Source: a virus. From it: 53,156 nt of DNA. Positions 4,747 through 46,171 of this stretch are shown piece by piece (positions within the stretch are counted from its first letter, which is position 1; the number at the start of each line of letters is the position of its first letter). The notes beneath the pieces are model-generated. The model saw only the letters and a program-made list of their open reading frames with translations. It made no database searches and was not told the origin of the DNA. Where the stretch lies: IMG/VR virus record IMGVR_UViG_3300035701_000044, positions 1 through 53,156 of that record. One strand, written 5' to 3'. The translations under genes and the position numbers were made by a program.

Positions 4747-5028
4747 TTAGTGGCGCATCAGGCGTTGTTGCGCAGGAGAAATGGGGGGCATTCCCAGCGC
4801 AGGCGTTGAGCCGTGCCCCTCGTCTCCGAGAACGCGGCCAGTTTCAGCGATACCCTTGTGTTGTAGGCCGTGCTTTCCGAGGTGCATGGCATCGTGCCCA
4901 AAGAACTTACTTCTTCGGATGAGGGGCATGAGAACGTCGTCGAGCGCCCCGAATGGAATCTCGATGGCCTGCTTCACAAGGCCTGCTTCTCGGAGGGCGA
5001 GGGTCATGCCGATCTTGTAGAAGTCCAT
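4747..5028 (-). CDS. lone minus-strand small protein with the N-terminal tag
   Basis: 93 residues from ATG 5028. The start is set by the N-terminus FYKIGMTLALREAGLVKQA, which closely matches tagged proteins elsewhere in the window (for example those starting at 7893 and 21940); this also argues that the gene is real although it runs against its neighbours. The rest is a His-rich, mixed sequence ending in SPAQQRLMRH, with no known domain. It has its own promoter-like sequence (TTGAAG-N17-TATGAT, 5036-5064), whose expected transcription start coincides with the ATG. An ATG at 5040 would add four residues but overlaps the -10 box. Confidence 0.75.
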   Translation of the reverse strand: MDFYKIGMTLALREAGLVKQAIEIPFGALDDVLMPLIRRSKFFGHDAMHLGKHGLQHKGIAETGRVLGDEGHGSTPALGMPPISPAQQRLMRH

Positions 5029-5035
5029 GTCGGTA

Positions 5036-5064
5036 ATCATAGGCCACTTGTGGCCTTTCTTCAA
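5036..5064 (-). promoter_or_regulatory. promoter, variant of the shared late motif, minus strand
   Basis: On the minus strand: TTGAAG, 17 bases, TATGAT, with CC before and T after the -10 box as in the six TACTAT promoters. The ATG of the 4747-5028 gene is seven bases after the -10 box, implying a leaderless message. The spacer contains a 7-bp inverted repeat (AGGCCAC/GTGGCCT, 5041-5056). Confidence 0.6.
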
Positions 5065-7368: not shown

Positions 7369-7896
7369 ATGAACTCGGAACACTTGAAGATTGCGTTCAT
7401 GCGTGGCGTTCAGGCCGCTGACCGCGAAGCCGGCGTTACTCTCCAAGATCACATGGGGATGCTCAAGACGGCCATCGGGTGGGGGGCGCTTGCGCTCCCC
7501 GCTTTAGGAGCTGGCGTCGGGGCGATGTCTTCTCCTGGTGAAGAAGTTCGGGGAGCCATGGGCGGTGGTATGGCGGGCTTGGGTGCGTATGCGCTGCTGC
7601 GCACGGCGGGAGGTTTGGGCAAGGGGATTGGGCGGCGTCTGATCGGCCGAGGGGCGGCTGCCGCGGCAAAGGCGGCTCCTGCGGTGGCTGAGAAGGTAGC
7701 CCCAGCTGCTTCAAAGGCGCTGAGCCCAGCTTGGAAGTCCGGTCTCCTTGGTGCAGGAATCGGCACTGGGTTGGGTGTGGGAGGGTATAGTCTGCTTAGC
7801 CCAAGTGGTGTTTCCCCTGAGGAACAGCAGCTGCTCGACCAGTACCGAATGCAGCAGATGCAGAGCGCGCCGGCGGGGTTGGAGGAGCAGCAATGA
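7369..7896 (+). CDS. tagged glycine-zipper membrane-type protein
   Basis: 175 residues. The N-terminus LKIAFMRGVQAADREAG aligns with the tag family and especially with the protein starting at 36898, which supports ATG 7369. A long Gly/Ala-rich hydrophobic region follows (about residues 35-90, with GxxxG-like spacing), then an Ala/Lys segment, then another Gly-rich hydrophobic stretch near residue 125-145 and a Gln-rich tail. Glycine-zipper segments pack tightly in membranes. No enzyme motif. Inference: a virion protein acting on or in a host membrane. ATGA overlap couples it to the next gene. Confidence 0.7.
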   Translation: MNSEHLKIAFMRGVQAADREAGVTLQDHMGMLKTAIGWGALALPALGAGVGAMSSPGEEVRGAMGGGMAGLGAYALLRTAGGLGKGIGRRLIGRGAAAAAKAAPAVAEKVAPAASKALSPAWKSGLLGAGIGTGLGVGGYSLLSPSGVSPEEQQLLDQYRMQQMQSAPAGLEEQQ

Positions 7897-8525
7897 GTCT
7901 GTACCACCTCGGGGTGCAACAGGCCCTTGTGGATGCGGGGCTGACCAAGCAGGCGGCGGGCTGGGGTTGGCCCCTCGCTGCCGGCGGGGCTGCGCTGTTG
8001 GGTGGTGGTCTGGGTGCGCTGGCGGGCGAAGACAAGAAGCGGGGCGCGATGATTGGAGCGCTCGGGGGCCTCGGTGCGGTCGGTGGGGCGCGGTATGGAA
8101 CCGGGAAGCTCACGAAGCTTCTTTCGAACCTTTCGAAGTACAAGGGGGCGGTTTCCCCTGAGGCGCACATGGAACGCATTCTGAAGAACCCGAATGGTAT
8201 GAAGAACCCGAACGTCGCGAATTGGGTGCTCAAGCACCTCGGTGCTGGTGCGGCCCTCGGTCTTGGTGGCTTGGGCGCTGGCCTTGGTGTGGGTTCTCGC
8301 CTCGTCCCCCACTCTGAAAGCTCTTCAGGTGGAGGAGAGGGCGGGTTGTTGGGGCTGAGCCCGGAACGCGCATCACAGCTTCAAGGTCTCCTTCCCATCG
8401 TTCAGCAAATGTACCAGGCCAGTCAGGGTGGGGCGCCGCTTCCGTCACTGGCGTCTTACTCCATGTTCCCCGAGCAGTCGTACGCCGGAGCTCCGGGTGC
8501 GATGGGGCCTGGGATGCCAATGTGA
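7893..8525 (+). CDS. tagged glycine-zipper membrane-type protein
   Basis: 210 residues. One of the clearest examples of the tag: YHLGVQQALVDAGLTKQA at residues 4-21. Next come two Gly-rich hydrophobic hairpin-like segments (about 25-47 and 52-70) separated by a charged turn (EDKKR), and a third near residues 115-135 (LGAGAALGLGGLGAGLG). The C-terminus is Ser/Gly/Pro/Met-rich. Layout matches its neighbours and the proteins at 21940 and 34364. Function not known from any family I recognise. Confidence 0.7.
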   Translation: MSLYHLGVQQALVDAGLTKQAAGWGWPLAAGGAALLGGGLGALAGEDKKRGAMIGALGGLGAVGGARYGTGKLTKLLSNLSKYKGAVSPEAHMERILKNPNGMKNPNVANWVLKHLGAGAALGLGGLGAGLGVGSRLVPHSESSSGGGEGGLLGLSPERASQLQGLLPIVQQMYQASQGGAPLPSLASYSMFPEQSYAGAPGAMGPGMPM

Positions 8526-8842
8526 TGAGCGGTTCCTTCTACAAGCTTGGCGTCGAACTCGCTCTCTGTGCCAGTGGCTTCCAGAAGTTCTCAAGCGTAC
8601 TTGGCAGCCTGGCGCGGTCAGCGGCAAAGAGTATCGGTATGAGCGAGACTCGTGACCTTTTGGGTGTCGAAACTCCCGAGTGGAAGCGTGTGTCTCCGCT
8701 GGATGCTGCGGTTGAGGCGGCGAAGGACGTGGTGGAAAAGATCACGGGGACAGAAGAGCCGACGGTAGTGCCGACCGAGGTCCCGCCCGAGGTTCCACCT
8801 GCAGCAGCGGCGGAGGCACTCCCTGAACCGAAACTTGAATAG
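8525..8842 (+). CDS. tagged protein with Pro/Glu/Ala-rich tail
   Basis: 105 residues from ATG 8525, which overlaps the upstream stop (TGATG). The tag FYKLGVELALCASGFQKF occupies residues 5-22. The middle is helical; the final 40 residues (TVVPTEVPPEVPP then AAAAEALPEP) are disordered-type. Unlike its two upstream neighbours it lacks a glycine zipper. Its stop codon touches the inverted repeat at 8841. Confidence 0.65.
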   Translation: MSGSFYKLGVELALCASGFQKFSSVLGSLARSAAKSIGMSETRDLLGVETPEWKRVSPLDAAVEAAKDVVEKITGTEEPTVVPTEVPPEVPPAAAAEALPEPKLE

Positions 8843-9050: not shown

Positions 9051-9830
9051 TTACTTGCCGTAGAGTGAGGTGTGGGCGCTGTCTGCAGCGCCGCTCGTCG
9101 AACCGGGGAACGTTCCGGAACTCGTGGGGGCGGGGGCCTTGTTCTTCAGCATCACCGGCTTGTCAAGGGCGCCACGGCTGATATCGCGCTTGAGGGTGTC
9201 CGCGACGTTCTTCACCGGTTCCATTGGGGGTGCGGCGTCCTGCTTCAACAAGTCAATGGCGGCTTCCTTCAGGGCCAGCTGCACACCCAGGGCGTAGGCT
9301 TCTTTCACGCCGCCCTCACGGAGCTTCATACGGATGAAGGCAGAGGGGCGCTTCTTTTTGGCAGCTATCTTTTCTCCCTTGTTTTCAATCATGGCCTTCT
9401 TGAACTTGTCGATGTGCATCGCGGTAATCGACCGAAAGAAATCTGGCCGGTCGTACTGCTTGAGGTACGCACGCTTGGCCGCTTCAGGAGAATCAAATCC
9501 GATCATGGTCTTGTCTTCGTCGTACTCACCAGGTTTCTTTGGGTGGTCGTTGGGGTGATTCTGATGGACGATGAATACGATCTTGGCGTTGGGGTTCGGG
9601 CCAATGTAGACGTCGAGCTTGTCGCCGTCGGTGCCCTTGCCTCGGACGATTTCGCCGTAGTGGTACTTCATCCGGGTGGACCACGGCTTGCCGCCGCTGT
9701 CTTTCCCCTCGCGGAGAGACCCTGCCAGGTTCTCGACGTTGATCTTGATGCCTTGGATGTCCGCCGTTCCAACGAATGGGAACTTGTCGCGATTCGGTGA
9801 AGGTGGCGGTCCTATATTGACTTCAGCCAT
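9051..9830 (-). CDS. inorganic-pyrophosphatase-like (InPase) polyvalent-type protein with internal tag
   Basis: 259 residues. Residues about 20-145 match the small pyrophosphatase-like domain known from phage polyvalent proteins: Gly/Arg-rich entry (KINVENLAGSLR), GEIVRGKGTDGDKLDVYIGP (residues 59-78) with the Asp cluster expected to bind metal, then FIVHQ and a GFDSPEAAKRAYL segment. Residues 178-198 (AYALGVQLALKEAAIDLLKQ) repeat the tag found at the N-termini of other proteins, here internal. A Pro/Ala/Ser tail follows. The start at 9830 is set by the promoter at 9837-9865, whose -10 box ends six bases before the ATG (leaderless). Confidence 0.75.
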   Translation of the reverse strand: MAEVNIGPPPSPNRDKFPFVGTADIQGIKINVENLAGSLREGKDSGGKPWSTRMKYHYGEIVRGKGTDGDKLDVYIGPNPNAKIVFIVHQNHPNDHPKKPGEYDEDKTMIGFDSPEAAKRAYLKQYDRPDFFRSITAMHIDKFKKAMIENKGEKIAAKKKRPSAFIRMKLREGGVKEAYALGVQLALKEAAIDLLKQDAAPPMEPVKNVADTLKRDISRGALDKPVMLKNKAPAPTSSGTFPGSTSGAADSAHTSLYGK

Positions 9831-9866: not shown

Positions 9867-10343
9867 CTAGATGATGGGTGTGACGACTGGTCCTGGGAAC
9901 GTTGCTGTGCCCCCCTGGTTGCAGCTATGAATCGCGGTTGCGAAGGCAAGACAGGCAGCTGGAGCGGGCACGTTGCCGGAGGTGTTGGCTAAAGCTACTT
10001 CAGTGATGTCTGCAGAAATTTTCGAGAGCGTTGGGGGAGGCGTGATTGCGGTGGCCAGGGGGAAGAACGCGACTGGTGCTGCGGACAGAGCTGCCCAGAA
10101 TGCGATGATGGCTTTCTGGATGGCCAGGGGGCCGGCGTCGGGGGCTGACATCCCAACAAGTGCTGCACGCATGGTTTGCGCTGGAGGTCCTGCGAGGGCG
10201 GGGGCAACAATGGGTATTCCCGCTGAGGCCATTCCGAAGTACTGAAGCCAGGCGAGCATCCAGCCCTCGAGTGCTTCGGGCTCGGTATTCTTGAAACCGA
10301 TTGCAACGAGCCCATCGGCCAGGTCTTTGGGGAGCATCGGCAT
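9867..10343 (-). CDS. hydrophobic Ala/Pro-rich virion-type protein
   Basis: 158 residues, rich in Ala, Pro and Gly with few charges. Several hydrophobic stretches (ASAGIPIVAPALAG, AIIAFWAALSAAPVAFFPLA) alternate with Pro-rich turns, and the end TATFPGPVVTP is a style seen in uncharacterised phage structural proteins. It contains no signal-peptide-like start and no catalytic motif. Its stop lies just before the promoter at 9837-9865. A promoter for it was not identified; a run of T/A (10379-10388) lies upstream. Confidence 0.6.
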   Translation of the reverse strand: MPMLPKDLADGLVAIGFKNTEPEALEGWMLAWLQYFGMASAGIPIVAPALAGPPAQTMRAALVGMSAPDAGPLAIQKAIIAFWAALSAAPVAFFPLATAITPPPTLSKISADITEVALANTSGNVPAPAACLAFATAIHSCNQGGTATFPGPVVTPII

Positions 10344-10431
10344 TTCCGAAGCATAGCCGATTCGAAAACTCGATGCACCTTTTTTTTTAGTTTAGTCTTG
10401 AGATCAATGAGTTACGACCAAGTGTCTGGGA

Positions 10432-10460
10432 TTGTGCTAAATCCGTGAATGACCTACTAT
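10432..10460 (+). promoter_or_regulatory. promoter TTGNNN-N17-TACTAT (plus)
   Basis: TTGTGC at 10432-10437, 17 bases ending GACC, TACTAT at 10455-10460, then T. It heads the 10.5-24 kb plus-strand unit; the 5' leader is about 20 bases and contains GGGAGGAAG as ribosome site. Confidence 0.8.
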
Positions 10461-10487
10461 TACCGTTGACCAAGATGGGAGGAAGAG

Positions 10488-10991
10488 ATGATGCCGAACG
10501 AGGAAAAAGTGCCGGAAAAACAGACCTCTAGCAAGCGTTCGAAGCTCAACATGATTGCCCTTTGGACTGCGGCACTTACAGCACTCGGTTCGCAGGGGAT
10601 TCCGAAGGTCGTCGAGCTGCTCAACAACAAGCCGTCGGTCGAGCAAGTCCAGCAGATGATTGCGACGCAGACCGAAGACCTGACGAAAAAGTTCAACGAG
10701 CTCGTCGATGCGCTCACAGGGCTCACTGGAAAGGTCGCTGACGCACAAAAACAAGCTGGGGACCTGACTGCCAAAGTCTCTCGCGTCGAGGGGGCTACAG
10801 AGCTGATTGAGAAGGTTCTTCCGGGGTGCTGCACGAAGACGCAGGCCGTAGAGCAGCTCAAGACTGCGGCGCCGGCGCCGTCTCCCGAGAAGGCAGTTGA
10901 GTTGAAGACCGCAGTGAAGGAAACCCGGGACATCAAGAAGAAGTTTCGCAAGGCAAACGAATTCAAAGCACAGCAGGTGCTGGGAGAATAG
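10488..10991 (+). CDS. coiled-coil protein with hydrophobic N-terminal segment
   Basis: 167 residues (ATG 10488; the adjacent ATG 10491 is equally possible). A basic start is followed by a hydrophobic stretch (LNMIALWTAALTALGS, about residues 21-36), then a long coiled coil (residues 50-105, EDLTKKFNELVDALTGL type), a CCTK motif and a Lys/Ala-rich end. A membrane-anchored coiled coil is the simplest reading, comparable in layout to the genes at 23363 and 25077. Not recognised. Confidence 0.6.
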   Translation: MMPNEEKVPEKQTSSKRSKLNMIALWTAALTALGSQGIPKVVELLNNKPSVEQVQQMIATQTEDLTKKFNELVDALTGLTGKVADAQKQAGDLTAKVSRVEGATELIEKVLPGCCTKTQAVEQLKTAAPAPSPEKAVELKTAVKETRDIKKKFRKANEFKAQQVLGE

Positions 10992-11367: not shown

Positions 11368-11871
11368 TTGTACCGCTACGCCTACAACCTCGGTTCGAAC
11401 TTGGCCCTCGCCGCTGCTGGCTTCAAGATGGCCGCGGCCGAGCGCATGGCTGAAGACGAAGCTCGGAAGCTTGGTGAGCGCATTGGCATCGACTGGGACA
11501 CGGCTGAGTTCACCGTTGCTGCTTTCGCCCAGGGCTGCCAGGTTGAGCTCGAGCACGGGAGCCGGGATCCCCAGACCAACGTAACCAGCAACGATGAGGA
11601 GGCCACGGGGAAGATAGCCTGGGCGCATCTGAAAGAGGACCCGGAGTACTACACCAAGTTGGCCAAGATGGAGAAGACGGCCAATACGCTTGACGGGGAG
11701 TCGAGCGAGGCCATTGACAAAACGAAGGTCATCGAGTGGTTCAAGAAGAACCCCAATCCCCAGGACTCGGCGGTGCACTCGTTCGCCAAAGAGATGGGGT
11801 ACAATCCGCACGCACTCGAGGGCGTCATCTACGAGTTGGCAACCAAGGCTGTGCAGGGAATGGGGATGTGA
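11368..11871 (+). CDS. tagged protein with DUF5661-like domain
   Basis: 167 residues from TTG 11368, preceded by AGGAGG at 11357-11362; the nearby ATG 11363 is out of frame. The tag YNLGSNLALAAAGFKMA is at residues 6-22. Residues about 45-105 (FAQGCQVELEHGS... TSNDEEATGKIAWAHLKE, then PEYYTKLAKME) match the small conserved domain DUF5661, seen in phage and bacterial proteins with no assigned function. The C-terminal 50 residues form a separate helical region. A clear case of the tag joined to a recognisable domain. Confidence 0.7.
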   Translation: MYRYAYNLGSNLALAAAGFKMAAAERMAEDEARKLGERIGIDWDTAEFTVAAFAQGCQVELEHGSRDPQTNVTSNDEEATGKIAWAHLKEDPEYYTKLAKMEKTANTLDGESSEAIDKTKVIEWFKKNPNPQDSAVHSFAKEMGYNPHALEGVIYELATKAVQGMGM

Positions 11872-13274: not shown

Positions 13275-14939
13275 ATGGCTGGCGAATACAGGATTCTTCG
13301 GATCACGACAGATGGGTACCCGGCGGAAATCAGCCCGTCGGGTGGCACCGCCATCGAAACCCCAGGAATTTTGCTGGGTGGCGACATCGTAGCGGGAGGC
13401 ACCCACAGCGTCACAGGGTTGGCCGCTGGCGATGCCGACGGCGACGCGCTGTCCTTCGGGCAGAGCGGAGCCAACTTGGCGGGTCTGAGCATCGACACCA
13501 GCCCGCTGAACATGAACGGGCAGGCGATCAACGACGTGGCGGCGCCCTCCGGCGCGGGTGACGCCACTAACAAGGCGTATGTGGACGCCATCGTGATTGG
13601 CGGCGGCCCCGTCAAGGAGCCGCTTTTCGACGCCATGCAGATGAGCGATGCTGAGGGCATTCTGGCTGGCGAGGCGCTGTACTTCACAGCACAACCCGCA
13701 GTCGGTGACCATGTGAAGATCGATGATGGCACGAACAGCGAGAACTACGTGTTCGTCGCCAACATCGTGGCCGAGGCGGGGCCGCTCGATGTGTCACGTG
13801 AGTCCAGCGCGGCGACCGCCCTGAACCGCCTGATGATTCGCATCAACGCGGGGAGCGCGTACTGGAAGGGCGTGTACGAGGCGACTGCCCACGCGGACAT
13901 CCACACCCCCTGTGCGTTCATCTACGATCAGACCACCGACGCCAGCCCGAGCACGAGCCGCATCTACGCGCCCACCCAGGGCAACGCCAACCTGATGCTC
14001 GTCCCGTTCACTTCGGGGACCACGACTCTCGTGTTCTTGCCGTACACCTACAAGACGGCGGGAGCCAGCTTGGCCACCGATCCTGGCTACCGGCGGTTCG
14101 GCTTGAACCGTGACACCGCCAGCCTCACCGACGGTGAAATCCACCTCGACCTGGGCACGGACAACCTGTACTCCTGGAACGGCGATGCGAGCACCTGGTT
14201 CCAGATGAGCGGTCCTGGCAGCATTCCGCTGGCGACCGCTGCCTCTGGTGGTGGTGTGGTCGGCCGGGTCGGGTTCGACAAGGACTACGGCTTGGATGTG
14301 ACCGTAGGCGGCATTGCCAAGGTCACCATCACCCCGAGCATGGGCTTGCAGTTCCACCCGGCAGCCGACGCCGACAAGGGCAAGTTGGAAATCCTGCTCG
14401 CCGGAACGCACCGGTTGATTCAGGGCGTCGCGGGCCTGGACGTGGAGGGGCTGCCCCTCTCGTTCTGGATCAACGGCGTCCAGGTCAGCGCGAACTTCAC
14501 GGCCGCTGCCGCAACCGAATTGACCGGCGGCGGGGCGACCACCCTGCACAGTCACGCGGGTGCGACCGCGGCGCAGAACATCACGAACAACTTCACGACC
14601 ACCGGTGCCTGTGCCAAGGGCGACCCGATGTTCTGGTCGAGCACCAACAACAAGATCGACGTGTGCGACGCCGCGACCGACGGCAAGCAGTGGGCGATTG
14701 GCGTGGCGATGGCCACTCTGGGCGTCGCTGGTACGGTGGACGTGGTGAGCAACGGCCACAGTGCGGCGGCAGTTCTGCCGGGTGCCGTCACGGCTGGGAT
14801 GCGTATCTTCCTGGCCGCGGGGCATGGCCTGACCAAGACCGCTCCCGTGGGCAGCGGAAACCACGTCATGCAGATGGGCTTCGCAGAGAACGCCGCGGAT
14901 CTGTTCGTACAGATCCAGTACATGGGCAAGAAGGCGTAG
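13275..14939 (+). CDS. tail-fibre protein
   Basis: 554 residues behind GAAGGAG. Low in charge, rich in Gly, Ala, Thr and Asp, and beta-predicted throughout. Residues about 75-110 (MNGQAINDVAAPSGAGDATNKAYVD, cut short here) have the form of phage fibre N-terminal repeats, with the NKAYVD motif common in trimeric fibres. A later part (near 280-320, LNRDTASLTDGEIHLD...DNLYSWN) also recurs in fibres. The C-terminal 120 residues resemble a small beta domain found in several phage surface proteins. First large gene of the fibre array. Confidence 0.7.
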   Translation: MAGEYRILRITTDGYPAEISPSGGTAIETPGILLGGDIVAGGTHSVTGLAAGDADGDALSFGQSGANLAGLSIDTSPLNMNGQAINDVAAPSGAGDATNKAYVDAIVIGGGPVKEPLFDAMQMSDAEGILAGEALYFTAQPAVGDHVKIDDGTNSENYVFVANIVAEAGPLDVSRESSAATALNRLMIRINAGSAYWKGVYEATAHADIHTPCAFIYDQTTDASPSTSRIYAPTQGNANLMLVPFTSGTTTLVFLPYTYKTAGASLATDPGYRRFGLNRDTASLTDGEIHLDLGTDNLYSWNGDASTWFQMSGPGSIPLATAASGGGVVGRVGFDKDYGLDVTVGGIAKVTITPSMGLQFHPAADADKGKLEILLAGTHRLIQGVAGLDVEGLPLSFWINGVQVSANFTAAAATELTGGGATTLHSHAGATAAQNITNNFTTTGACAKGDPMFWSSTNNKIDVCDAATDGKQWAIGVAMATLGVAGTVDVVSNGHSAAAVLPGAVTAGMRIFLAAGHGLTKTAPVGSGNHVMQMGFAENAADLFVQIQYMGKKA

Positions 14940-21939: not shown

Positions 21940-22299
21940 ATGAACGAGGAGTACAAAATCGGAGTGGAGTTGGCGCTCAAAACCATGGGGCTCACGAAAC
22001 AGGCCGGTCTCCCCATGGGGCTGGTCAATCGGCTGCGAGCAGCCGCGGCGCATCCAGTTACCATTGGAGCTGGCCTCGGGGCTGTTGGTGGGTTGCTGTC
22101 AGTTGGTGAGGAACCGCTGTTGCACCGAGTTCTTCAGAACGCGGCCATGGGTGGAGTCATTGGTGCTGGCATCAAGTACTTGCCGAAGTATACCGACAAG
22201 ACGATGCCTGGGCACGTCTTGGCGAAGGATATCCCTTGGCTGGCGCCGTCGTTGTTGGCGCCGGCGTTGGTTTCGCGGATGTCTCCGAGAAAGTCGTAG
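21940..22299 (+). CDS. tagged glycine-zipper membrane-type protein
   Basis: 119 residues from ATG 21940 with GAGGTGGAG before it. The tag YKIGVELALKTMGLTKQA fills residues 5-22 and is among the best matches. A glycine-zipper pair follows (about residues 40-55, VTIGAGLGAVGGLL, and 67-80, AAMGGVIGAGI) separated by a charged loop, then a third hydrophobic stretch near the C-terminus. Embedded in the fibre operon but similar in layout to the 7.4-8.5 kb proteins. Confidence 0.7.
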   Translation: MNEEYKIGVELALKTMGLTKQAGLPMGLVNRLRAAAAHPVTIGAGLGAVGGLLSVGEEPLLHRVLQNAAMGGVIGAGIKYLPKYTDKTMPGHVLAKDIPWLAPSLLAPALVSRMSPRKS

Positions 22300-29879: not shown

Positions 29880-30191
29880 TTACTCCGCCGGAGTCTGGTA
29901 GTACGCCATGTGCTGCGCTACCTCGGGCGGAAGTCCCTGCGTCAACATTTCCTGAAGCGCGCTCGGTGGCGTCGTCATCAGGCTTTCGCGAATCTTGTCA
30001 GCGGTCGATGCAATCTCATCTGTCTTGACGCTCTCCATGATGGCAGCGCCCAGAGCTATGCCGCCAAGCCCAGGGATGAGGTACTTCAGAATCTCACCGG
30101 TACCGGCTTCTTTCTCGATGGCAGCTTCGTGGGCCGCTTCAACGCGCCCCAGATCGGCTGCCATCTTCAGAAGAAGTTCGGTCCGGGGCAT
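29880..30191 (-). CDS. small protein with single Gly-rich membrane segment
   Basis: 103 residues from ATG 30191 with GGAGA upstream; one base after the stop of the preceding gene. The N-terminal helix ends in IEKEAG, like the ends of tagged proteins, but lacks the full tag. A hydrophobic Gly/Ile stretch (LIPGLGGIALGAAIM, about residues 40-54) follows, then a helical, polar C-terminus. Probably of the same functional class as the 30193-30654 gene. Confidence 0.6.
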   Translation of the reverse strand: MPRTELLLKMAADLGRVEAAHEAAIEKEAGTGEILKYLIPGLGGIALGAAIMESVKTDEIASTADKIRESLMTTPPSALQEMLTQGLPPEVAQHMAYYQTPAE

Positions 30192-30192
30192 C

Positions 30193-30654
30193 TCAATCTC
30201 CAAACGCTTTCGGGTATAGCTTCTTGGCGGTCAAGTAACCGCCGCCGCCTAGAGCACCGAGTCCGCCCACGGTGGCGTAGGGGGCGAGTGACTTCAGCAG
30301 CTCTCTCTTGGTCGCTTCATAGGGGGTCTTCTGCAGCGCTGGCTCCAGCATTTTGATGGCTTCGAAGAGCTTTTCCTTTTTCGCAGTACCCTCAGCGACA
30401 CCGCGCACGTGGCTGAGGGCCGATTCGACAAGACTTCTATCGATTGGTCCAGCGGACGTTGTTCCTGCCTTGGCTGCTTCGGGTAACTTTGCCAGGGCCG
30501 TTCGCACTTTGGCGCCGGTGAAGAAGTCCTTGAGGTGTGAACCGGCACGCTGCCCCAAGTGCTTAGCACCTTCCCACGCTGGGCCGGCTTCCTTGACCAG
30601 GCCGACTTCAGCCAGGGCCATCTGCACACCGAAGTTGTAGGCCTCGTGAGCCAT
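30193..30654 (-). CDS. tagged protein between sheath and tube genes
   Basis: 153 residues. Tag YNFGVQMALAEVGLVKEA at residues 6-23. A Lys/Ala-rich helical domain follows (about 30-120), and near the C-terminus a Gly-rich hydrophobic segment (VGGLGALGGGGYLTAKKLYP). The gene is inserted between sheath and putative tube genes, so tagged proteins are produced with tail genes as well as with head genes. No recognised domain outside the tag. Confidence 0.7.
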   Translation of the reverse strand: MAHEAYNFGVQMALAEVGLVKEAGPAWEGAKHLGQRAGSHLKDFFTGAKVRTALAKLPEAAKAGTTSAGPIDRSLVESALSHVRGVAEGTAKKEKLFEAIKMLEPALQKTPYEATKRELLKSLAPYATVGGLGALGGGGYLTAKKLYPKAFGD

Positions 30655-30664
30655 CCGCGGTCCT

Positions 30665-33559
30665 CTAAGCCTTCAGGTGCAGGCCAATCTTGTTGAGGAC
30701 GTTCGGCATGTCGATTTCCATGTAGACTTCGACCATGTCGGACTCGGTCTGTTCGACGAGGCCGATGACGGCGTCGAGCAGTGGGGGACCGATCTTCGCG
30801 AACGAGCGCGCCCGAAGGAACTTCGACCGGCTTTCCAGTGAGGCTACGATGCTCGTGATGGTTTCCGGCATGATGTTGTACCGGCCCAGGAACTCCTGGA
30901 GGACGACCTTGTAGGAGTTGGCGATGTAGTCGAAGTTCTTGACGTGCATCAGCTCGCCGAACTCGTAGGCGCTGACGTCGGTGGTGACTTCGTGAATGGT
31001 GTACGGCAAGCTGGACTCACCGTCCTGCACGAACACGTACCATCCGCCGTTGCGCAGGGCGGTCAGCTGGTCGTCGTTGAAGTAGAAGTTCGAGTTGAAC
31101 AGCTGCGCGATGCCGCCGATGCCGATGTAGGTGAAGCCCTGCTGGGAGGGCAATCCGGCGACGAGGCCGCCTACGGCGCAGGCCAGGTACTGGCCCTTCT
31201 GGTGGCTGCGGACGCCGGTCAGGTTGTTCATGATCTCGGTCGGCAGCAGCACCTCGTTCGGCCACACCATGACACAGCGCATGTTCTTCACGCTGGTCGT
31301 GATGGTGTTGAGCTCCGTGACCTGAGCGGCCTTGTCCAGGGTGATGGCGATGCGGTAGTGGCAGTTCCCCGAGAAGCCCGCGATGAAGGCGTTCGGCCCC
31401 AGTTCTTCGAGCGTCTCGAGATCTGCCCCCAGCAATTCGTTGCTGATGACGGTGTCGATGGGCCAAGCGGTCTTGGCGGTGTCCCACAGGGTCGGATCGG
31501 TGTTCGCCGGGTATGGGATCTCGATGAGCTCACCCGGTAGAACGGTGGTGAGGAACGTGGCGGTGTTGTCCCGCAGCCGGGTTAGCCGCTTGCGGGTGGT
31601 AATGCCTGCAACGCCGTGCGCTGCCTTCATGTGGAAGACGGCGACGTTTGTGATGTCGGACCCGGGGTCCACGAGCTTGTAGGTGCCATCGTAGGCCACG
31701 GTGATGCTGTTGACGTCGGCGGCAGTGACGACCCACATGCCGCGACTGGCAGTTGTGCCGTCCGTCGAAGGTGTGACGACTGCGAGGTCGCCCACAGCGA
31801 CGCCGGCGAACGCAGCGGCCTTGGTGAGGGTGTGGTCATTCGTCCAGGTGGCGCTAGTGACGCCAACCACGGGGCGGTAGACCCTGACGTTCATGGAGCC
31901 AGAGTTGGCATCGGCACCGTAGGCCAGGTTGATCTTCACCGAATCGGCGGTCTTCGACAGTACCAGGAAGCCGTCGTTGTGTGCCGCCGTTGCGCCGCCG
32001 GTTACCTGGGCGACGTCTCCTGCCTGAACGGTTGAAAACGCGCCGCTGCCGGCCTTCGTGATGGTCGTGGAGGCTCCGGCGTCGCTGCTGGTCCAGTTGC
32101 AGGCGTCGGCCGACGCCACGACGGTTCCACCTTCGGCTTGCAGGATGGCTTCGCGAATGAAGTAGTCGCAGCGCTCGGCACCGGAGGTGGCTCCGGCGAA
32201 TACGGCGGAGGTGCGCAGGCGCTTTTCGCCCATGGCGCCCAACAGAGCCTTGGCGGCGTACGCCGGGGTCTGTTCCGTGAAGAGGTTCTTGCCGTTGGCG
32301 GCGGTCAGGATTGCCGGGGTGCCGTCGGCATGCGTGATGTCGAGCAGATGGCTTGAGCCGATGCCCTTGGTCACGAATTCGGCGCTGGCGTGCGGGTCGA
32401 CGAAGACGTCGATGCCGTCAGTCGGGCCTGCTTCGGTGGAGCCCACCAGACTCGGCGGAGCCGAGCTCTTCTCGGAGGGCAGGATGTCGTAGGAGCCGAT
32501 GACGATGCGGAACTTCGACTTCGCGGGATCGGCGAAAGCGACGCAGTGAGTCTTCCACAGGGCGATGACGCTGACCCAGTCGGCGCCGCTGAGCGAATCG
32601 GTCAGCGGTACGAGGGCGTAGATGTCCTCGCGGGTGGTCATCCGGTCCCGGGCGCTGGTCTGCCCTGCCAGGGTGTCGGCTCCGACGCCGAAGACCTGAA
32701 TCGGAGTGTTGGTGTTCGCAAACGTGGTCTGGGCGCCTACAGCGAGCGGATTCCGCTCGTCGACGGTGCCCAGAAGCGCCTCGATGGCGTCGGTGTTGTC
32801 GAGGACCTTCACATCCTGCAGGTCGGTCCGCAGTTCACGGTAGCCGATATACATCTGGGCGTAGTTCACCTTCCAGGTGAGGCTCTCGTACGCCAGGACG
32901 ACGGATGTCGGTGTGGTGTTGAGGTTGATGACGTTGCCCACTACGGTGACGTAGGTGGCCATGTCGATACGCTGGTCGGACAGCGCGTGCTCCACGCGCC
33001 ACCGGATGGTGCCAACGCCAAGGTCGTCAGCGGTTTTGTTGGTGCTGGTGAGTTCGAGGGTTGTGGCGCCAGTCGGTGTGGTCTTGACGTACTTCACCAC
33101 GGTCTTGGACAGGTCGGCCTTGGTGAGCACGATGCGATCGCCGGCCTTCACTTTTTTGTTGACGAAGTCTCCGCTAGCCGAGGTGAACTCGTTGGTATCG
33201 AGCACCATGGCGCCGTCTGCTCCGTATTGGAGCTCGATCAGGACTTCGTTGAAAACGAAGTCGACGCTGTTTTCATCCAGGATTCCGCCCGCGGTGTGCC
33301 CGGGAGGGGTGCTCCAGGTCTTGAAGGTGATTCCCGCGTCTGGGCGCCCAGAACTCGTTCCGGTGGTGCCGCAGGGTGCGTCTTTGGTCAGACCGGTCTT
33401 GGTGAACTCACCCCCAGCGATGTCGGCGATGTCAGCCGGGTAGTCCTCGATGTGGTAGCATGGACCGACCAGGCAGCAGTTGAGGTCCGGGACTGCCGGG
33501 GCCACAACGACTTTGGCGAATTCCTGGTAAACGTACACGATGGGGCGAACGAATGGCAT
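30665..33559 (-). CDS. tail sheath protein, very large
   Basis: 964 residues, against 659 for T4 gp18. N-terminal 30 residues and the YRELRTDL/ADWVSVIALW regions fit the sheath core. Residues about 465-640 carry two or three repeated beta domains (CNWTSSDAGASTTITKAGSG, then TNDHTLTKAAAFAGVAVGDL) that look like surface insertions. The C-terminus (YKVVLQEFLGRYN, then IMPETITSIVASLES and a final DMVEVYMEIDMPNVLNKIGL) is the conserved sheath C-domain. Contracts to drive the tube into the host. Preceded by a late promoter. Confidence 0.8.
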   Translation of the reverse strand: MPFVRPIVYVYQEFAKVVVAPAVPDLNCCLVGPCYHIEDYPADIADIAGGEFTKTGLTKDAPCGTTGTSSGRPDAGITFKTWSTPPGHTAGGILDENSVDFVFNEVLIELQYGADGAMVLDTNEFTSASGDFVNKKVKAGDRIVLTKADLSKTVVKYVKTTPTGATTLELTSTNKTADDLGVGTIRWRVEHALSDQRIDMATYVTVVGNVINLNTTPTSVVLAYESLTWKVNYAQMYIGYRELRTDLQDVKVLDNTDAIEALLGTVDERNPLAVGAQTTFANTNTPIQVFGVGADTLAGQTSARDRMTTREDIYALVPLTDSLSGADWVSVIALWKTHCVAFADPAKSKFRIVIGSYDILPSEKSSAPPSLVGSTEAGPTDGIDVFVDPHASAEFVTKGIGSSHLLDITHADGTPAILTAANGKNLFTEQTPAYAAKALLGAMGEKRLRTSAVFAGATSGAERCDYFIREAILQAEGGTVVASADACNWTSSDAGASTTITKAGSGAFSTVQAGDVAQVTGGATAAHNDGFLVLSKTADSVKINLAYGADANSGSMNVRVYRPVVGVTSATWTNDHTLTKAAAFAGVAVGDLAVVTPSTDGTTASRGMWVVTAADVNSITVAYDGTYKLVDPGSDITNVAVFHMKAAHGVAGITTRKRLTRLRDNTATFLTTVLPGELIEIPYPANTDPTLWDTAKTAWPIDTVISNELLGADLETLEELGPNAFIAGFSGNCHYRIAITLDKAAQVTELNTITTSVKNMRCVMVWPNEVLLPTEIMNNLTGVRSHQKGQYLACAVGGLVAGLPSQQGFTYIGIGGIAQLFNSNFYFNDDQLTALRNGGWYVFVQDGESSLPYTIHEVTTDVSAYEFGELMHVKNFDYIANSYKVVLQEFLGRYNIMPETITSIVASLESRSKFLRARSFAKIGPPLLDAVIGLVEQTESDMVEVYMEIDMPNVLNKIGLHLKA

Positions 33560-34363: not shown

Positions 34364-34837
34364 CTAGTACTCCGGGTAGAAATTGTCGAGCCCCATGGCA
34401 CCGCGCATTCGGTTATCTGGCGTCATCCCATAGATTTCCGGAAGCAACCCCAGCGACGTTTCGCTCTCTGCCTGGTCGGCAATAGGTTGGGCTGCGGCTG
34501 ATCTGTGCTTGGCCGGGGCCTCTCGATTCAGCCACTTGGGCACTTGCGCGCCGGCGTACCCACCAACTCCTCCCCCAGCCAAACTGCCCAGCAGGGTACC
34601 GATGAGCTGGCCACGCTCGATCTTTTGTGGGTCGACTCCGCCGAAGAACCCCTTGTCGGAGAACGTTTCAGCAGCCCGGCCCCCGAGGTATTTACCAAGT
34701 AAACCTCCGCCGGCAGAACCAGCAAGGCCTCCGCCGATTCCTGATAGGCGTTGGGCCGCTGCCATTTGCTGGGGGGTTAGCCCCTCTTCTTCTTCGTAGG
34801 CCCGCTTCACTCCCAATTGAAATGCGACTTTCAGCAT
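34364..34837 (-). CDS. tagged glycine-zipper membrane-type protein
   Basis: 157 residues from ATG 34837 (GAGGAG upstream). The N-terminus VAFQLGVKRAYEEEEGLT is a diverged form of the tag in which acidic residues replace the usual AL.EAG. Two strong glycine-zipper segments follow: GIGGGLAGSAGGGLLGKYLG (about residues 32-51) and LIGTLLGSLAGGGVGGYAGA (about 73-92). The C-terminal half is polar. Contains one palindromic TTTACNNNGTAAA site. Confidence 0.7.
   Translation of the reverse strand: MLKVAFQLGVKRAYEEEEGLTPQQMAAAQRLSGIGGGLAGSAGGGLLGKYLGGRAAETFSDKGFFGGVDPQKIERGQLIGTLLGSLAGGGVGGYAGAQVPKWLNREAPAKHRSAAAQPIADQAESETSLGLLPEIYGMTPDNRMRGAMGLDNFYPEY
34691..34703. repeat. TTTACNNNGTAAA palindrome, site in the 34364 gene
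   Basis: Exact match (spacer CAA), in coding sequence; minus strand reads GGTTTACTTGGTAAA, very like the endolysin site. Confidence 0.6.
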
Positions 34838-36157: not shown

Positions 36158-36898
36158 CTAATATGCGTAGCGTGCAGTCGGAAATTGACGGTATGCGGAA
36201 GCAACAGCCGGGGCGGCAACCCCTGCGGCTTGTGCTTCGGGGGAAACGCCCCCACCTAGAAGTGAGCTGGCCGCTCCTTCTCCTTTGGCGCCACCAATGA
36301 AGCCGGCTGCCGCCAGAGGAACTCCTCCGGCGGCGTACATGCCAAAGCGCTTAGCAGATTCACCCATCGTACCTGGTCCACTTTTGGCGTACTGCATGAT
36401 CCCGCCAAGTGTCGAATGGGCCTTATCTTGCTTCGCAAAAGAACCCAGGCGCTTTGCGAAGTCCGGAGCGTGGGATCCCAACCACTTTCTTCGGGACGCG
36501 ACCCCCATCAGACCGCGGGTTCCTTCGATGCTCCCACGGAACGCCAAGCCACCGGCAGCGCCACCCAGGGCTCCCCGAGCGTAGCGTTCGTACCACGGGT
36601 CTTCTCCGCCGGCCAGGGCGTTCATTGCTCCACCGGTGCCAGCACCAAACAAGGTGTCGCGCAGGTAGCTCTTGGCACCCTTGGGTACGCTAGCTACGAG
36701 TGCGTCGTGCCACGGACCGCCACCGTATGTTCCCATGCGCCCGGCACTGAGGGCTTTCCCAAGAACGCCCTGCCCTTTGTTCCGGGCGTTGCCAATATAC
36801 TTGAGGAAATTGGGGACGGCAGTCTTTTCGAGTCCAGCATCTCGGCTGGCTCGTATCACGCCGAGCACGAAAGCCTGCTTGAGAAGCTCCTCGTTCAT
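36158..36898 (-). CDS. tagged protein with Gly-rich regions
   Basis: 246 residues from ATG 36898, four bases into the upstream gene (ATGA-type overlap). The tag LKQAFVLGVIRASRDAGLEKTA spans about residues 5-26 (abridged) and resembles the protein starting at 7369. A Gly/Arg-rich basic region follows, then AGTGGAMNAL, a long helical part, and a hydrophobic Gly/Ala stretch (MYAAGGVPLAAAGFIGGAK) near residue 200. Function unknown. Confidence 0.7.
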   Translation of the reverse strand: MNEELLKQAFVLGVIRASRDAGLEKTAVPNFLKYIGNARNKGQGVLGKALSAGRMGTYGGGPWHDALVASVPKGAKSYLRDTLFGAGTGGAMNALAGGEDPWYERYARGALGGAAGGLAFRGSIEGTRGLMGVASRRKWLGSHAPDFAKRLGSFAKQDKAHSTLGGIMQYAKSGPGTMGESAKRFGMYAAGGVPLAAAGFIGGAKGEGAASSLLGGGVSPEAQAAGVAAPAVASAYRQFPTARYAY

Positions 36899-37905: not shown

Positions 37906-38805
37906 TTAGACCAAGGTGACGCGGGTGATGGCGGCGGTGTTTCCGATACCGATGCCCGGAGCGCTGTAGCTCCAGAACTCGATCATGTCGGCTTCCTGCT
38001 TGATGAACAGGGTCGCATCCTGCAGGAGGTAGAAGTTGCCGAGGAAGTTCTCCGGCCCGAACACCCAGAACTCGTCGTTCTGCACGATGTCGTTCTTGAT
38101 GGTGGTGATGACCGGGAAGCCCCACAGCTTCTCCTCTTCTTCGATACCCTGGTCGTAGTGCCGGCTGGCCACTTCACCGATGGTGGTGAAGGGGATGTTC
38201 AGCAGGTCGTAGTAGAGCTCTTTGGTCATCAAGAGCTTCCCGATGGGGATCTTCCGGGCGATCTGCTTCTGCAGGGCGGTGACGATGTTGCTGCTGCCCA
38301 GGGGGCCACCGAGGGTCAGGTCCTGGTTCGGCTTGCCGGCGACGCAGGCGACGCAAGTCTCGTAGAACTTGCTGTCTTCCTGGTCCGCCATGTCCTTCAC
38401 CGAGTTGTCGCTCAGGATCTTCCGGATGTCGTTCTGGTAGGTCATGAGCTCGAACTTGCTCTTGTTGAAGCGCTGGCTTTCGACCTTGCCGAAGTAGACG
38501 GCGTAGCGCGGCCCGCTGAACCAGGTCCGGTCGCCGGTGCCCTTGAAGGTCACGAACGTGGCGACGGAGTCGGGCTCCTTCTCCACGATCTTCTTCGGGA
38601 GGTCGGTGTCCTCAGAGCGGTCGATCTCATCGTCCGCCAGGACGAGTGGGGTCAGGATCTCGCGTGCGAACGAGGTCTGACGGAGCTTGGAACGGATGAA
38701 CGCAGAACCCTCGGTCTGGGCTTCCTTCACCCGGCCCTCCTCGATCTTCCGGAGGAAGTTCGAGTTGATGAACTGCGCGGACACCTGCGAGGTTTCGGTT
38801 CTCAT
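37906..38805 (-). CDS. major capsid protein (HK97 fold)
   Basis: 299 residues, AAGGAGA ahead of ATG 38805. The pattern ADDEIDRSEDTDLPKKIVEK, KVESQRFNKSKFELMTYQND, IRKILSDNSVKDM and a C-terminal region with FGPENFLGNFYLL matches major capsid proteins of large contractile phages: an N-arm, E-loop, P-domain and A-domain in order. Length is typical for the mature-size class. It would form the shell with the tandem decoration-like proteins encoded immediately before it in transcription order. Confidence 0.75.
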   Translation of the reverse strand: MRTETSQVSAQFINSNFLRKIEEGRVKEAQTEGSAFIRSKLRQTSFAREILTPLVLADDEIDRSEDTDLPKKIVEKEPDSVATFVTFKGTGDRTWFSGPRYAVYFGKVESQRFNKSKFELMTYQNDIRKILSDNSVKDMADQEDSKFYETCVACVAGKPNQDLTLGGPLGSSNIVTALQKQIARKIPIGKLLMTKELYYDLLNIPFTTIGEVASRHYDQGIEEEEKLWGFPVITTIKNDIVQNDEFWVFGPENFLGNFYLLQDATLFIKQEADMIEFWSYSAPGIGIGNTAAITRVTLV

Positions 38806-41445: not shown

Positions 41446-41665
41446 TCGCCACTCCATCCAGGAAAGCTTTGACGTCGTCAACGGTCACATCGGTGGAACC
41501 GGAACGGAGTTCTACGGCGAGTTTTTGCAGCCCTTCGCCTAGAGTTGTCCGCGCTGTTGGGTGCGCCGAAGCTTCTTTCACGATCTGCCGGGCTGCCAGG
41601 TCCGTGAGCTTGGCGGTCTTCACTTCCGCCAAAATGTCGTTCACGATTTTGGAGATCGAGTTCAT
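41435..41665 (-). CDS. small helical head-region protein
   Basis: 76 residues from ATG 41665, ATGA-coupled to the upstream gene. All-helical, with VNDILAEVKTAKLTDLAARQ and IVKEASAHP (the h-x-K-x-A motif) followed by GLQKLAVEL. Ends in DDVKAFLDGVANA. Could be a scaffold partner. Not recognised. Confidence 0.6.
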   Translation of the reverse strand: MNSISKIVNDILAEVKTAKLTDLAARQIVKEASAHPTARTTLGEGLQKLAVELRSGSTDVTVDDVKAFLDGVANAR

Positions 41666-42018
41666 ATCGACGTGAACTCCTCTTCACCCGCGCCCCCAGG
41701 GACAAGCCCCAGACCCGTAGCTTTCGAGAGAGTCCTCAATATCGGAGGCGCTACGAGCCCCGAGGCGACTCCTGCACCGAAAGCCAGGTTTCGAGTACGG
41801 AGCCGCTCATCTTCTGCCGACGACTCTGCTCGGGACTTGGCGATAAGAGCGGCAGGGATTCCTGCGCCGGCGACGGTAAGAGCGCCCAACCCAAACATGG
41901 CCGCGGGATGCCGTAAAACCTTGCCCAGGGCTCCCTGAGCAAGCTTCTTGATCTCCTGCACTTCGGAGGAAGCCGAAGCCAGCTTGAACAGCTGGGCGTA
42001 TGTCTCGGCTGCGTTCAT
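41662..42018 (-). CDS. small protein with Gly-rich membrane segments
   Basis: 118 residues. The N-terminal 30 residues form a helix with LFKLASASSEV and EIKKLAQGAL. A Gly/Ala hydrophobic stretch (AAMFGLGALTVAGAGIPAAL, about residues 40-59) and a second one (LAFGAGVASGLVAPPIL) are separated by a charged loop. Layout like the tagged zipper proteins, but without the clear FxxGV tag. Confidence 0.6.
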   Translation of the reverse strand: MNAAETYAQLFKLASASSEVQEIKKLAQGALGKVLRHPAAMFGLGALTVAGAGIPAALIAKSRAESSAEDERLRTRNLAFGAGVASGLVAPPILRTLSKATGLGLVPGGAGEEEFTSI

Positions 42019-42027
42019 CCGCCCTCT

Positions 42028-42789
42028 TTACATCGCCCGGATCACGTTGATGGTGTCGCCGTAGCCCCGGTCGAACGTGTCGCCAGCCATCTTGGTCAGC
42101 TCGTTCATGGTGTCGCTGTAGCCGCGCTTGATCTCGGCCAGCTTCTCGCGTCCTTCGGGGGTCTCGGCCAGCTTCTCGAGCTCGGCGGCCAACTGGTTCT
42201 CGGAGTTGAATTCCGTAGCCACCTTCTGAAGCTGAGTCTGCCCTGCGGCGGTCTTCTGGAGTTCGACGATCTGCTTCTGGGTGTCCGCATAGCCCTTTTC
42301 GAACGCGGCGACTTTCAGTTGTTCGATCTGGGCCTTTCCGTGGAGGTAGCCCAGGTCGATGGCTTGCTTGGTCAGGTCCGGGTTCTCAGAAGCGAACTTC
42401 TCGAACTCGGCCTGGGTCGGCACACCGTCCGCGCTAGCGGTCTTCAGAGTCGGGACCGGCTCCTTGGCGGCGGCGGACTCGTACTGCCCGAGGCGAGACA
42501 TGAACCCGTCGGCGACGGCGGCGCCGTAAAACTGCGCCTCCTTCACCAGGGCCGCGGACTCGCTGTTGGCCAAGTCGGTGGCCATCTTCACGAGCTCGCC
42601 GGTGGCCGGCTTCGCACCTGGCTGCGCGGCGGCAGTTTTTTCTCCTGGGGTGAGCACACCGTCCAGCGCGCTGAGCAGCTTGTCACGCGCCCCGGCGGTT
42701 TTTGCGCCAGGAGCTGGGGCGCTGGCGGTCTTCGTCAAACCGTCGGTGCTGGTTCCCTTGATCTGGGTCATGATTTCGTGGAGCTCCAT
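42028..42789 (-). CDS. putative scaffold/core protein with many h-x-K-x-A motifs
   Basis: 253 residues, first gene after the promoter at 42826-42854 and directly downstream of the protease gene. Helical and Ala/Glu/Lys-rich throughout, without Cys. Contains about nine copies of a h-x-K-x-A form (LTKTA, EKTA, LVKMA, LVKEA, LKTA, LTKQA, LQKTA, LQKVA, LTKMA) and tag-like FYGAAVADGF and FDRGYGDTINVIRAM. A gene next to the protease with low complexity and helical content is the usual place of the scaffold or internal core protein, which the protease digests. Confidence 0.55.
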   Translation of the reverse strand: MELHEIMTQIKGTSTDGLTKTASAPAPGAKTAGARDKLLSALDGVLTPGEKTAAAQPGAKPATGELVKMATDLANSESAALVKEAQFYGAAVADGFMSRLGQYESAAAKEPVPTLKTASADGVPTQAEFEKFASENPDLTKQAIDLGYLHGKAQIEQLKVAAFEKGYADTQKQIVELQKTAAGQTQLQKVATEFNSENQLAAELEKLAETPEGREKLAEIKRGYSDTMNELTKMAGDTFDRGYGDTINVIRAM

Positions 42790-44676: not shown

Positions 44677-45281
44677 TCGTGACAAATCTCGTACAACAGG
44701 TTCATACCGTACCCACGGTTGAGGAGACGAATCTCCGCTGCAAGTTTCAGGGTGTCCTCAGGCGTTGTTTCCGGTAGGCCAGACAACATGCCCTCGATGA
44801 GCCCAACGGTAGCCAGCTTTTCGATGGCGTCTTCCGAGAGAAGATTGCTGGAGGCCTGCTTCGCTTCAGCAGGCGGGTAGCCGCCCAGAGGCGCTCCGCC
44901 GGTCAATCGATGCAAGCCGTAGAGCCCACCGCCGATGCCGGCTAGCCCCAGCGCGGTCTGAAGAACTTTGTTTCGGACGTCAGCGGTAGCTTCTTCGCCG
45001 CGGTCGTAGAACTTGTTGATGAGGTGTCGTCCACCCAAAACGGCGGGGGCTCCTAGCCCCAAACCCCACGCCAGCGGTTTTCCGATCGTCTTGAGTGCGT
45101 TCAGGTCCAGGGATTCCTTGACGATATCGAACACTTGGTTGTCGACGCCCAACTTTACGGTAAGGGCCTTGGCCAGAATTTCTGGATCGTCCTTATAGGC
45201 CGCTGCCGTCTTCCCGAGCTTGTTCGAGAGTTCGACAAGACGGTAGACCTGGGCAAGCTTGGGGTGCAATGCGGGAACCAT
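44673..45281 (-). CDS. head-region protein with Gly-rich membrane segments
   Basis: 202 residues. N-terminal helix with LVELSNKLGKTAAAYK carries the K-T-A motif. Two hydrophobic Gly/Ala segments lie near residues 70-85 (AWGLGLGAPAVLGG) and 108-126 (TALGLAGIGGGLYGLHRL), separated by a charged part. It precedes the protease and may be an internal head protein; function unknown. Confidence 0.6.
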   Translation of the reverse strand: MVPALHPKLAQVYRLVELSNKLGKTAAAYKDDPEILAKALTVKLGVDNQVFDIVKESLDLNALKTIGKPLAWGLGLGAPAVLGGRHLINKFYDRGEEATADVRNKVLQTALGLAGIGGGLYGLHRLTGGAPLGGYPPAEAKQASSNLLSEDAIEKLATVGLIEGMLSGLPETTPEDTLKLAAEIRLLNRGYGMNLLYEICHE

Positions 45282-45526: not shown

Positions 45527-46171
45527 TCACTTTGACGGTCCAGCTTGGGCTCGAGCCACGGAAGCTTCGGCGTCGGCAATGCCTTTGATAGTGTTGTAGT
45601 CCAGCCCACCACCGCTGACGACGGCCTGTGTCAGGAACGAACGAACGGCGTTCTTGTCGGTGGCCAGTGTCGGCGCGACCTTGGACATGGTGTGGTAGGC
45701 TTCGAGCAACGTTTTGTTGTCGGCTTCGTTCAGAATGGGGTCTTCCTTCTTCAGGGCTTCGAAGATGGCAACGCGGGCCGGGCTGACGACCATGTTGTCC
45801 TTGAGGGTATCGTACGCCTTGCCAAACATATCTGTCGTGAGTCCGATGAGCTGTTTGGCGCTCTCGGAGCCAACGGTTTTTCCGAACGACTCGCCAATGA
45901 TTTCATCGGCACGAATACGGTCTGTCAGGGTGTTGAGCCCACGGTTGATGCGGTAGCTTAGGGTCTTGGATTGGTTTTCGCCTTCGGTGATCCCACCGCC
46001 TCCCAAACCGTGCCACAGTGCCGACCCGGCGGCCAACGTGGGGATACCAATGAGGGCGGCCTTCCCCACCGGGGCCTTCCAGAGCGTCTTCATCAGCTCG
46101 CTGAAGGCGGTGGCAACGCCGCCGGCTGCCTTTTCCAGGTACTCGTCGACCGATGACAGTTTCGTTCTCAC
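45527..46171 (-). CDS. head-region helical protein
   Basis: 214 residues from GTG 46171, GTGA-coupled to the upstream gene and behind GGGAGAG. Begins SSVDEYLEKAAGGVATAF (YLEKA motif), then a hydrophobic Gly/Ala stretch (AALIGIPTLAAGSALWHGLGGGG, about residues 36-58) and a long helical domain with DRIRADEIIGESFGK and a variable end. May contact the membrane at infection or sit inside the head. Not recognised. Confidence 0.6.
   Translation of the reverse strand: MRTKLSSVDEYLEKAAGGVATAFSELMKTLWKAPVGKAALIGIPTLAAGSALWHGLGGGGITEGENQSKTLSYRINRGLNTLTDRIRADEIIGESFGKTVGSESAKQLIGLTTDMFGKAYDTLKDNMVVSPARVAIFEALKKEDPILNEADNKTLLEAYHTMSKVAPTLATDKNAVRSFLTQAVVSGGGLDYNTIKGIADAEASVARAQAGPSK

Follow-up and report, generated by a model that had tools for sequence, protein, structure and literature searches.

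A scaffold-like N-terminal tag and weakly hydrophobic glycine zippers in likely capsid cargo of a contractile-tailed phage

The DNA analysed here, called the window throughout, is a viral record of 53,156 bases that encodes a contractile-tailed phage, the probable sheath gene being 30665-33559, so read from its own sequence and its position among the genes, while the family libraries returned nothing useful for it. At positions 7369-8842 three successive genes encode proteins that begin with the same kind of short tag, and in the first two the tag is followed by glycine zippers, here defined as stretches that contain one required G-x-x-x-G. Tagged proteins with and without zippers are encoded across the window:

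4747-5040, minus strand: tagged protein without zipper, 97 aa; tag score 27.4
7369-7896, plus strand: tagged protein, 175 aa; tag 7369-7473 ending MLKTA; zippers 7474-7533, 7546-7599 and 7738-7797
7893-8525, plus strand: tagged protein, 210 aa; tag 7893-7955 ending LTKQA; zippers 7968-8027, 8040-8099 and 8238-8294
8525-8842, plus strand: tagged protein without zipper, 105 aa; tag 8525-8593 ending FQKFS; tag score 22.2
11368-11871, plus strand: tagged DUF5661 protein without zipper, 167 aa; tag score 21.8; Pfam DUF5661 E 2.5e-16
21940-22299, plus strand: tagged protein, 119 aa; tag 21940-22005; zippers 22054-22104 and 22135-22182 flanking a charged turn
29880-30191, minus strand: zipper protein with a tag-like motif, 103 aa; motif 30105-30176 ending IEKEA; zipper 30036-30083
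30193-30654, minus strand: tagged protein, 153 aa; tag 30586-30654 ending LVKEA; single C-terminal zipper 30226-30288
34364-34837, minus strand: tagged protein, 157 aa; tag 34760-34837; zippers 34682-34741 and 34547-34606
36158-36898, minus strand: tagged protein, 246 aa; tag 36818-36898 ending LEKTA; zipper 36287-36346
51464-52720, minus strand: tagged protein without zipper, 418 aa; tag score 22.2

Relatives of the phage were gathered through its capsid protein and are mostly metagenome contigs, the largest of about 198 kb; the comparison set comprises 19 genomes, the window counted among them. No phage matched the head region of the window at the DNA level. The cultured relatives are of two kinds: Salmonella phage Arash, which electron microscopy shows to be a myovirus, and Vibrio phage D69 with its close kin. 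Their capsid proteins belong to one family with that of the window (43% identity with Arash, 38% with D69). The closest large relative, G001, has a GC content of 48%. A capsid gene 72% identical to that of the window occurs in a contig (L229) of an Archaeoglobales MAG, where the host assignment is doubtful: when bacterial and archaeal genomes were searched, this one short contig was the outcome, and it is probably a binning artefact.

The tag is about 20 residues long and has the form A-F/Y-x-L-G-x-x-x-A-L-x-x-x-G-L-x-K-x-A. Ninety tagged proteins were found in the 19 genomes at a tag score above 12, a threshold that lets through about 0.1 chance matches over the whole set. Most cores behind the tag are unrelated to one another, those of the length-matched set forming 63 clusters, and the N-terminal sequence is what these proteins share, as expected of cargo of the T4 internal protein (IP) kind. 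When the tag is scored blind to K-x-A, this motif follows it in 67 of 113 proteins, against 157 of 2966 elsewhere, a count with some circularity in it, since sequences containing K-x-A went into the training of the tag columns. The score overlooks variants with an extra residue, among them 34364, whose tag is one residue longer and without K-x-A, and the weaker tags of G001; such variants sit among the proteins counted as untagged, and the zipper enrichment given below is therefore, if anything, understated. The motif of 29880 occupies residues 11-29 and scores 15.4, and in the protein encoded at 9051-9830, to which Pfam assigns an InPase domain (PF18823), residues 178-199 resemble the tag, away from the N-terminus. 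Neither Arash nor D69 has a clear N-terminal tag, the K-x-A-blind model included; Arash gp29 scored 12.5 but failed the blind model and is taken as chance.

The original prediction had placed one to three Gly/Ala-rich stretches with GxxxG-like spacing behind the tags of six proteins, and this description holds. All six reading frames (7369, 7893, 21940, 34364, 30193 and 36158) have coding support and contain such stretches: 7369 and 7893 have three each, 21940 and 34364 have two each and, of the two proteins said to carry a weaker form, 30193 has a single clear stretch and 36158 has a clear one together with two weaker Gly-rich ones (36605-36652 and 36539-36580). Pairing around a short charged turn, also proposed, is seen in 7369 (PGEE), 7893 (DKKR) and 21940 (GEEPLLHRVL), but the linker of 34364 is longer. 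Because the zipper definition itself contains G-x-x-x-G, glycine spacing was tested on stretches picked regardless of spacing. Compared with shuffles within the same stretches, glycine pairs at spacing 4 number 201 against 137 expected (z 8.0), pairs at spacing 8 are also in excess (z 5.1) and spacing 1 is depleted, which establishes a genuine i,i+4 zipper register beyond mere composition.

Zippers go with the tag. In the 19 genomes they are present in 37 of 87 tagged against 242 of 3130 untagged proteins (OR 8.8, p 5.5e-18); the enrichment persists after length matching, after homologue clustering (36/63 versus 115/1547, OR 16.6, p 1e-22) and with the K-x-A-blind tag model (46/113 versus 233/3107, p 2.7e-21). 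That the zippers arose by chance from the Gly/Ala-rich composition of proteins encoded by a high-GC genome is extremely improbable: glycine and alanine are common, and whole-core shuffles still give a zipper in 12.2 (SD 2.7) of the 87 tagged proteins, but 37 were observed, the spacing-4 excess speaks against composition as well, and the pattern is not a GC effect, since it is present in 8 of 12 tagged proteins of G001 at 48% GC. Tag and zipper are associated yet separable. The original prediction, in which the tagged proteins commonly carry zippers, stands as a strong enrichment, but more than half of the tagged proteins have no zipper, including 8525, 11368, 51464 and 4747 in the window; proteins similar to 51464 are tagged in G001, G002 and G003. 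One tagged protein of G002 (176298-178193, 631 aa) combines LigD phosphoesterase-like, DNA ligase and GNAT domains and is a possible injected repair enzyme. Given the many tagged proteins without a zipper and this one tagged enzyme in a relative, the tag would mean cargo rather than conduit.

The zipper stretches have a mean length of 23 residues, of which no more than one in 18 is charged or strongly polar. Their description as membrane segments was overstated. A segment of 19 residues with a Kyte-Doolittle (KD) value of 1.6 or more, the classical transmembrane criterion, is rarer in tagged (3/87) than in untagged proteins (346/3130), and the highest value among the six tagged proteins named at the outset is 1.49, while 29880 reaches 1.69; this low hydrophobicity rules out ordinary transmembrane helices. 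A weakly hydrophobic zipper would suit a protein that avoids the membrane of the producer cell and enters another one later. T7 gp16 is soluble when purified, with its membrane helices folded up before ejection (PMC8954989), and is a precedent for such switching from a soluble to a membrane state.

Further zippers or zipper-like segments lie in the head module, whose genes also bear on the origin of the tag:

37906-38805, minus strand: major capsid protein; N-arm 38719-38805 ending RVKEA; PHROG major head protein, E 2.7e-4
41662-42018, minus strand: untagged head-module protein, 118 aa; hydrophobic Gly stretches 41839-41901 and 41737-41787
42028-42789, minus strand: probable scaffold, 253 aa; 15 K-x-A sites; family with tag-like repeats
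42862-44676, minus strand: probable prohead protease, 604 aa; PHROG head maturation protease, E 7.6e-9; hydrophobic Gly-rich C-terminal segments 43201-43254 and 43156-43188
44673-45281, minus strand: untagged head-module protein, 202 aa; zipper pair 45030-45086 and 44913-44966
45527-46171, minus strand: untagged head-module protein, 214 aa; Gly/Ala stretch 45995-46063

The 15 K-x-A sites of the probable scaffold compare with 3.6 expected (p 0.002), and 42% of the members of its family have an internal tag score above 6, against 2% of shuffles; in twelve other families at most 4% exceed this score, save 3 of 12 in the family of 9051. In the N-arm of the capsid protein, K-x-A/S (K-E-A or a variant) stands near residues 27-29 in 80 of 80 relatives, and K-x-A is enriched in Arash gp220, gp223 and gp225 too. 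From the K-x-A of the capsid arm, the K-x-A excess of the scaffold and its tag-like repeats, the preferred reading of the tag is that of a propeptide which targets proteins to the capsid. A tag followed by K-x-A looks like a single scaffold repeat plus a putative protease site, and the tag may derive from scaffold repeats bounded by K-x-A sites. The pattern of K-x-A occurrence is also the basis on which K-x-A is predicted to be the cleavage site of the prohead protease, and on which the specificity of this protease is tentatively assigned.

The original prediction had noted similar hydrophobic segments in untagged head-region proteins, and 41662, 44673 and the C-terminus of the protease bear this out, but 29880, listed with them, has the tag-like motif described above. 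The protein 41662 has a KD value of 1.81 and relatives in about 10 loci; it sits between the scaffold and capsid genes, as Arash gp224 does, a likeness of position only that leaves homology with gp224 unsupported. The zipper pair of 44673 is kept in most relatives, while the C-terminal segment of the protease is variable. An AlphaFold model of 44673, built from 13 sequences, has confident helices flanking the zipper pair and the pair itself at a pLDDT of about 34; a fold search with this model gave no viral match below E 0.7, and a profile search of solved structures gave nothing below E 0.1. Homology of 44673 with Arash gp221 is unsupported (2.6%), the homologue of gp221, a virion protein, being 45527 (hhalign probability 88.9%, E 2.4e-6), and 46168 has Arash gp220 as its homologue (hhalign 97%).

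Two other readings link the zippers to the head. In one, which we consider rather unlikely, they pack together or with head proteins as a soluble inner capsid core and are never membrane-bound; the tagged segments are indeed less hydrophobic than classical transmembrane helices (KD 1.6 or more in 3/87), some zipper proteins are encoded in the head module adjoining scaffold and protease, and T4 delivers its internal proteins although they lack segments of this kind. Stretches of 23 residues are, however, long and apolar for an exposed soluble helix, the zipper pattern is common to podophage ejection proteins, and the pair of 44673 falls outside the confident helices of the model, so that no buried Gly-rich soluble core, which the original prediction had named as a refutation, is predicted, although low confidence proves little and does not amount to evidence of membrane insertion. 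In the other, an improbable reading, the zippers tether the prohead core, along with its protease, to the inner membrane of the cell that makes the phage. The untagged zippers of the protease C-terminus, 44673, 45527 and 41662 all belong to head-assembly genes, and T4 proheads are membrane-attached until proteolytic maturation and then detach (PMC9026906), which would agree with a tether of this kind. But the zippers of the tagged proteins follow the presumed cleavage site and would stay in the mature virion, accessory tagged genes such as 7369 and 21940 lie far from the head module, and weak hydrophobicity is a poor fit for stable anchoring.

That the tagged proteins are virion components, as had been proposed, is indirectly well supported by the scaffold-like tag, K-x-A and the untagged zipper proteins of Arash. 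Mass spectrometry of Arash virions detected gp221, gp220 and the zipper proteins gp213 and gp224 (PMC10585845), all four of them untagged, and it is for the untagged zipper proteins of this distant cultured relative that a virion location is shown. The Arash list holds 116 proteins, including enzymes that its authors call possible carry-over (PMC10585845), so that detection alone is no proof of a structural role. The Arash virion has RNA polymerase beta and beta' (L089 and L148) among its most abundant proteins.

The tagged zipper genes diverge fast, and searches found few homologues: direct searching returned one for 34364 and none for 7893 in viral contigs, and tblastn of 7893 against phage records gave no match. 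Nor did the tagged zipper proteins have a convincing match in Pfam or PHROG. The curated cut-offs of Pfam Gly-zipper_Omp and Rick_17kDa_Anti were not reached; 34364 scored 16.5 against 25 (Gly-zipper_Omp, E 0.0079), its weak Pfam and PHROG matches being of the kind typical of Gly-rich sequence, and the other tagged proteins had no match to these two families. AlphaFold of 7893 from four sequences gave a mean pLDDT of 46 and no usable model. Similarity is detected nonetheless by position and by alignment against shuffles. The alignment of 7369 with 7893 beats shuffles (z 5.4; z 3.8 outside the tag), and the likeness of 7893 to two tagged proteins elsewhere in G001 extends past the tag: 121074 (core-shuffle z 4.6) and 121467 (z 4.2). 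G001 retains tagged genes at the positions of 21940 (1391-1831, core-shuffle z 7.7), 34364 (14313-14831, z 13.3) and 30193 (10207-10629, z 4.5), the first two with clear zippers; as these genes beat shuffles of the sequence after the tag, the architecture is kept while the sequence drifts. At 115275-117554 of G001, zipper proteins with weaker tag-like N-termini are encoded in tandem, which suggests expansion of a gene family. The accessory, fast-evolving and scattered nature of the tagged genes would also agree with their encoding virion-delivered membrane proteins for host takeover or superinfection exclusion, with no role in DNA entry. The tag on the LigD-like ligase with a GNAT domain in G002 points the same way, since a tag that carries an enzyme may deliver varied effectors. 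We regard this as unlikely, because several zipper genes keep their place in G001, some of them beside sheath or structural genes, which suggests a structural role.

We favour a reading in which a large contractile-tailed phage packs the tagged proteins into its capsid as cargo, which is likely, and in which the zipper proteins act on a membrane after ejection, which is plausible though just short of an even chance. The tag, resembling a scaffold repeat, would probably dock the protein in the prohead core, and the prohead protease would usually remove it at K-x-A, leaving in many cargoes one or more weakly hydrophobic glycine-zipper helices, often paired, which would be too weak for ready insertion during synthesis and able to pack as helical oligomers. 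Ejected with the DNA, the zippers would probably insert in the host envelope and there assist the passage of DNA or cargo, like podophage ejection proteins; insertion and assistance are the least certain steps. A DNA conduit in particular, as originally proposed, is less certain because a contractile tail can cross the envelope mechanically and may suffice, a podophage-style conduit thus not being required. The explanation as a whole, from loading by the tag to insertion in the envelope, is evenly balanced in our estimate. A broader reading, tentative and on the doubtful side, is that largely uncultured myoviruses load cargo in modular fashion, a detached scaffold repeat with K-x-A tagging unrelated proteins and a zipper class assembling in the envelope, by which a contractile-tailed phage would gain a podophage-like membrane stage. 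If the explanation is true, the virion cargo of this lineage could be listed from N-termini, by sequence alone, and there would be specific candidates for the passage of contractile-phage DNA or protein through the inner membrane.

The likeness to podophage ejection proteins, which the original prediction had invoked, survived testing. The ejection proteins of podophages (P22 gp7, gp20 and gp16; T7 gp14, gp15 and gp16; Sf6 gp11-13; PMC8954989, PMC10883804) often have weakly hydrophobic Gly-zipper helices like those of the tagged proteins. Zippers are found in 8 of 18 podophage ejection proteins, whereas a single one of the 43 other virion or packaging proteins has them (p 1.1e-4), although the 18 represent few homologous families and the effective sample is smaller. 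Their hydrophobicity is in the low range of the tagged-protein zippers, and P22 gp7 and Sf6 gp11 have two zippers in close succession, as do 7369 and 7893. On the same measure T7 gp14 has no zipper, so the signature is not universal among ejection proteins. Searches of the literature brought up no paper on ejection proteins with glycine zippers; in this small test the signature split podophage ejection proteins from other virion proteins, and it may aid annotation. No sequence homology was detected between the tagged and the ejection proteins, and the leader of P22 gp7 was rejected as the same tag (score -0.6, shuffle p 0.12). The podophages have three fixed proteins, whereas here many small tagged ones accompany a contractile tail.

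SPN3US and phiKZ, myoviruses with ejected head proteins (PMC10052503, PMC5694885), are similar in their large head with many internal proteins, and the removal of propeptides by their prohead protease would have its parallel in the predicted loss of the tag here; the Arash virion, too, contains RNA polymerase beta and beta'. They differ in having a gp245-type cleavage motif in place of the short shared tag with K-x-A. Arash shares a related head module and the capsid-protein family, with K-x-A-rich head proteins and zipper proteins in its virion, and D69 shares the capsid-protein family; both differ in having no clear tag. In T4, a short N-terminal capsid targeting sequence (CTS) loads internal proteins and is removed by the prohead protease, and the CTS has been proposed as a route for loading varied proteins (PMC9026906). 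As in IPI, IPII and IPIII of T4, an N-terminal targeting peptide would be common to otherwise divergent accessory cargo. T4 differs in its cleavage site at an acidic residue, against a putative K-x-A and a tag resembling a scaffold repeat here, and in internal proteins that have no zippers on the same measure, whereas the tagged cargo here often has them. If the proposed reading is true, the capsid targeting sequence of T4 would gain a useful counterpart in this short cargo-loading tag.
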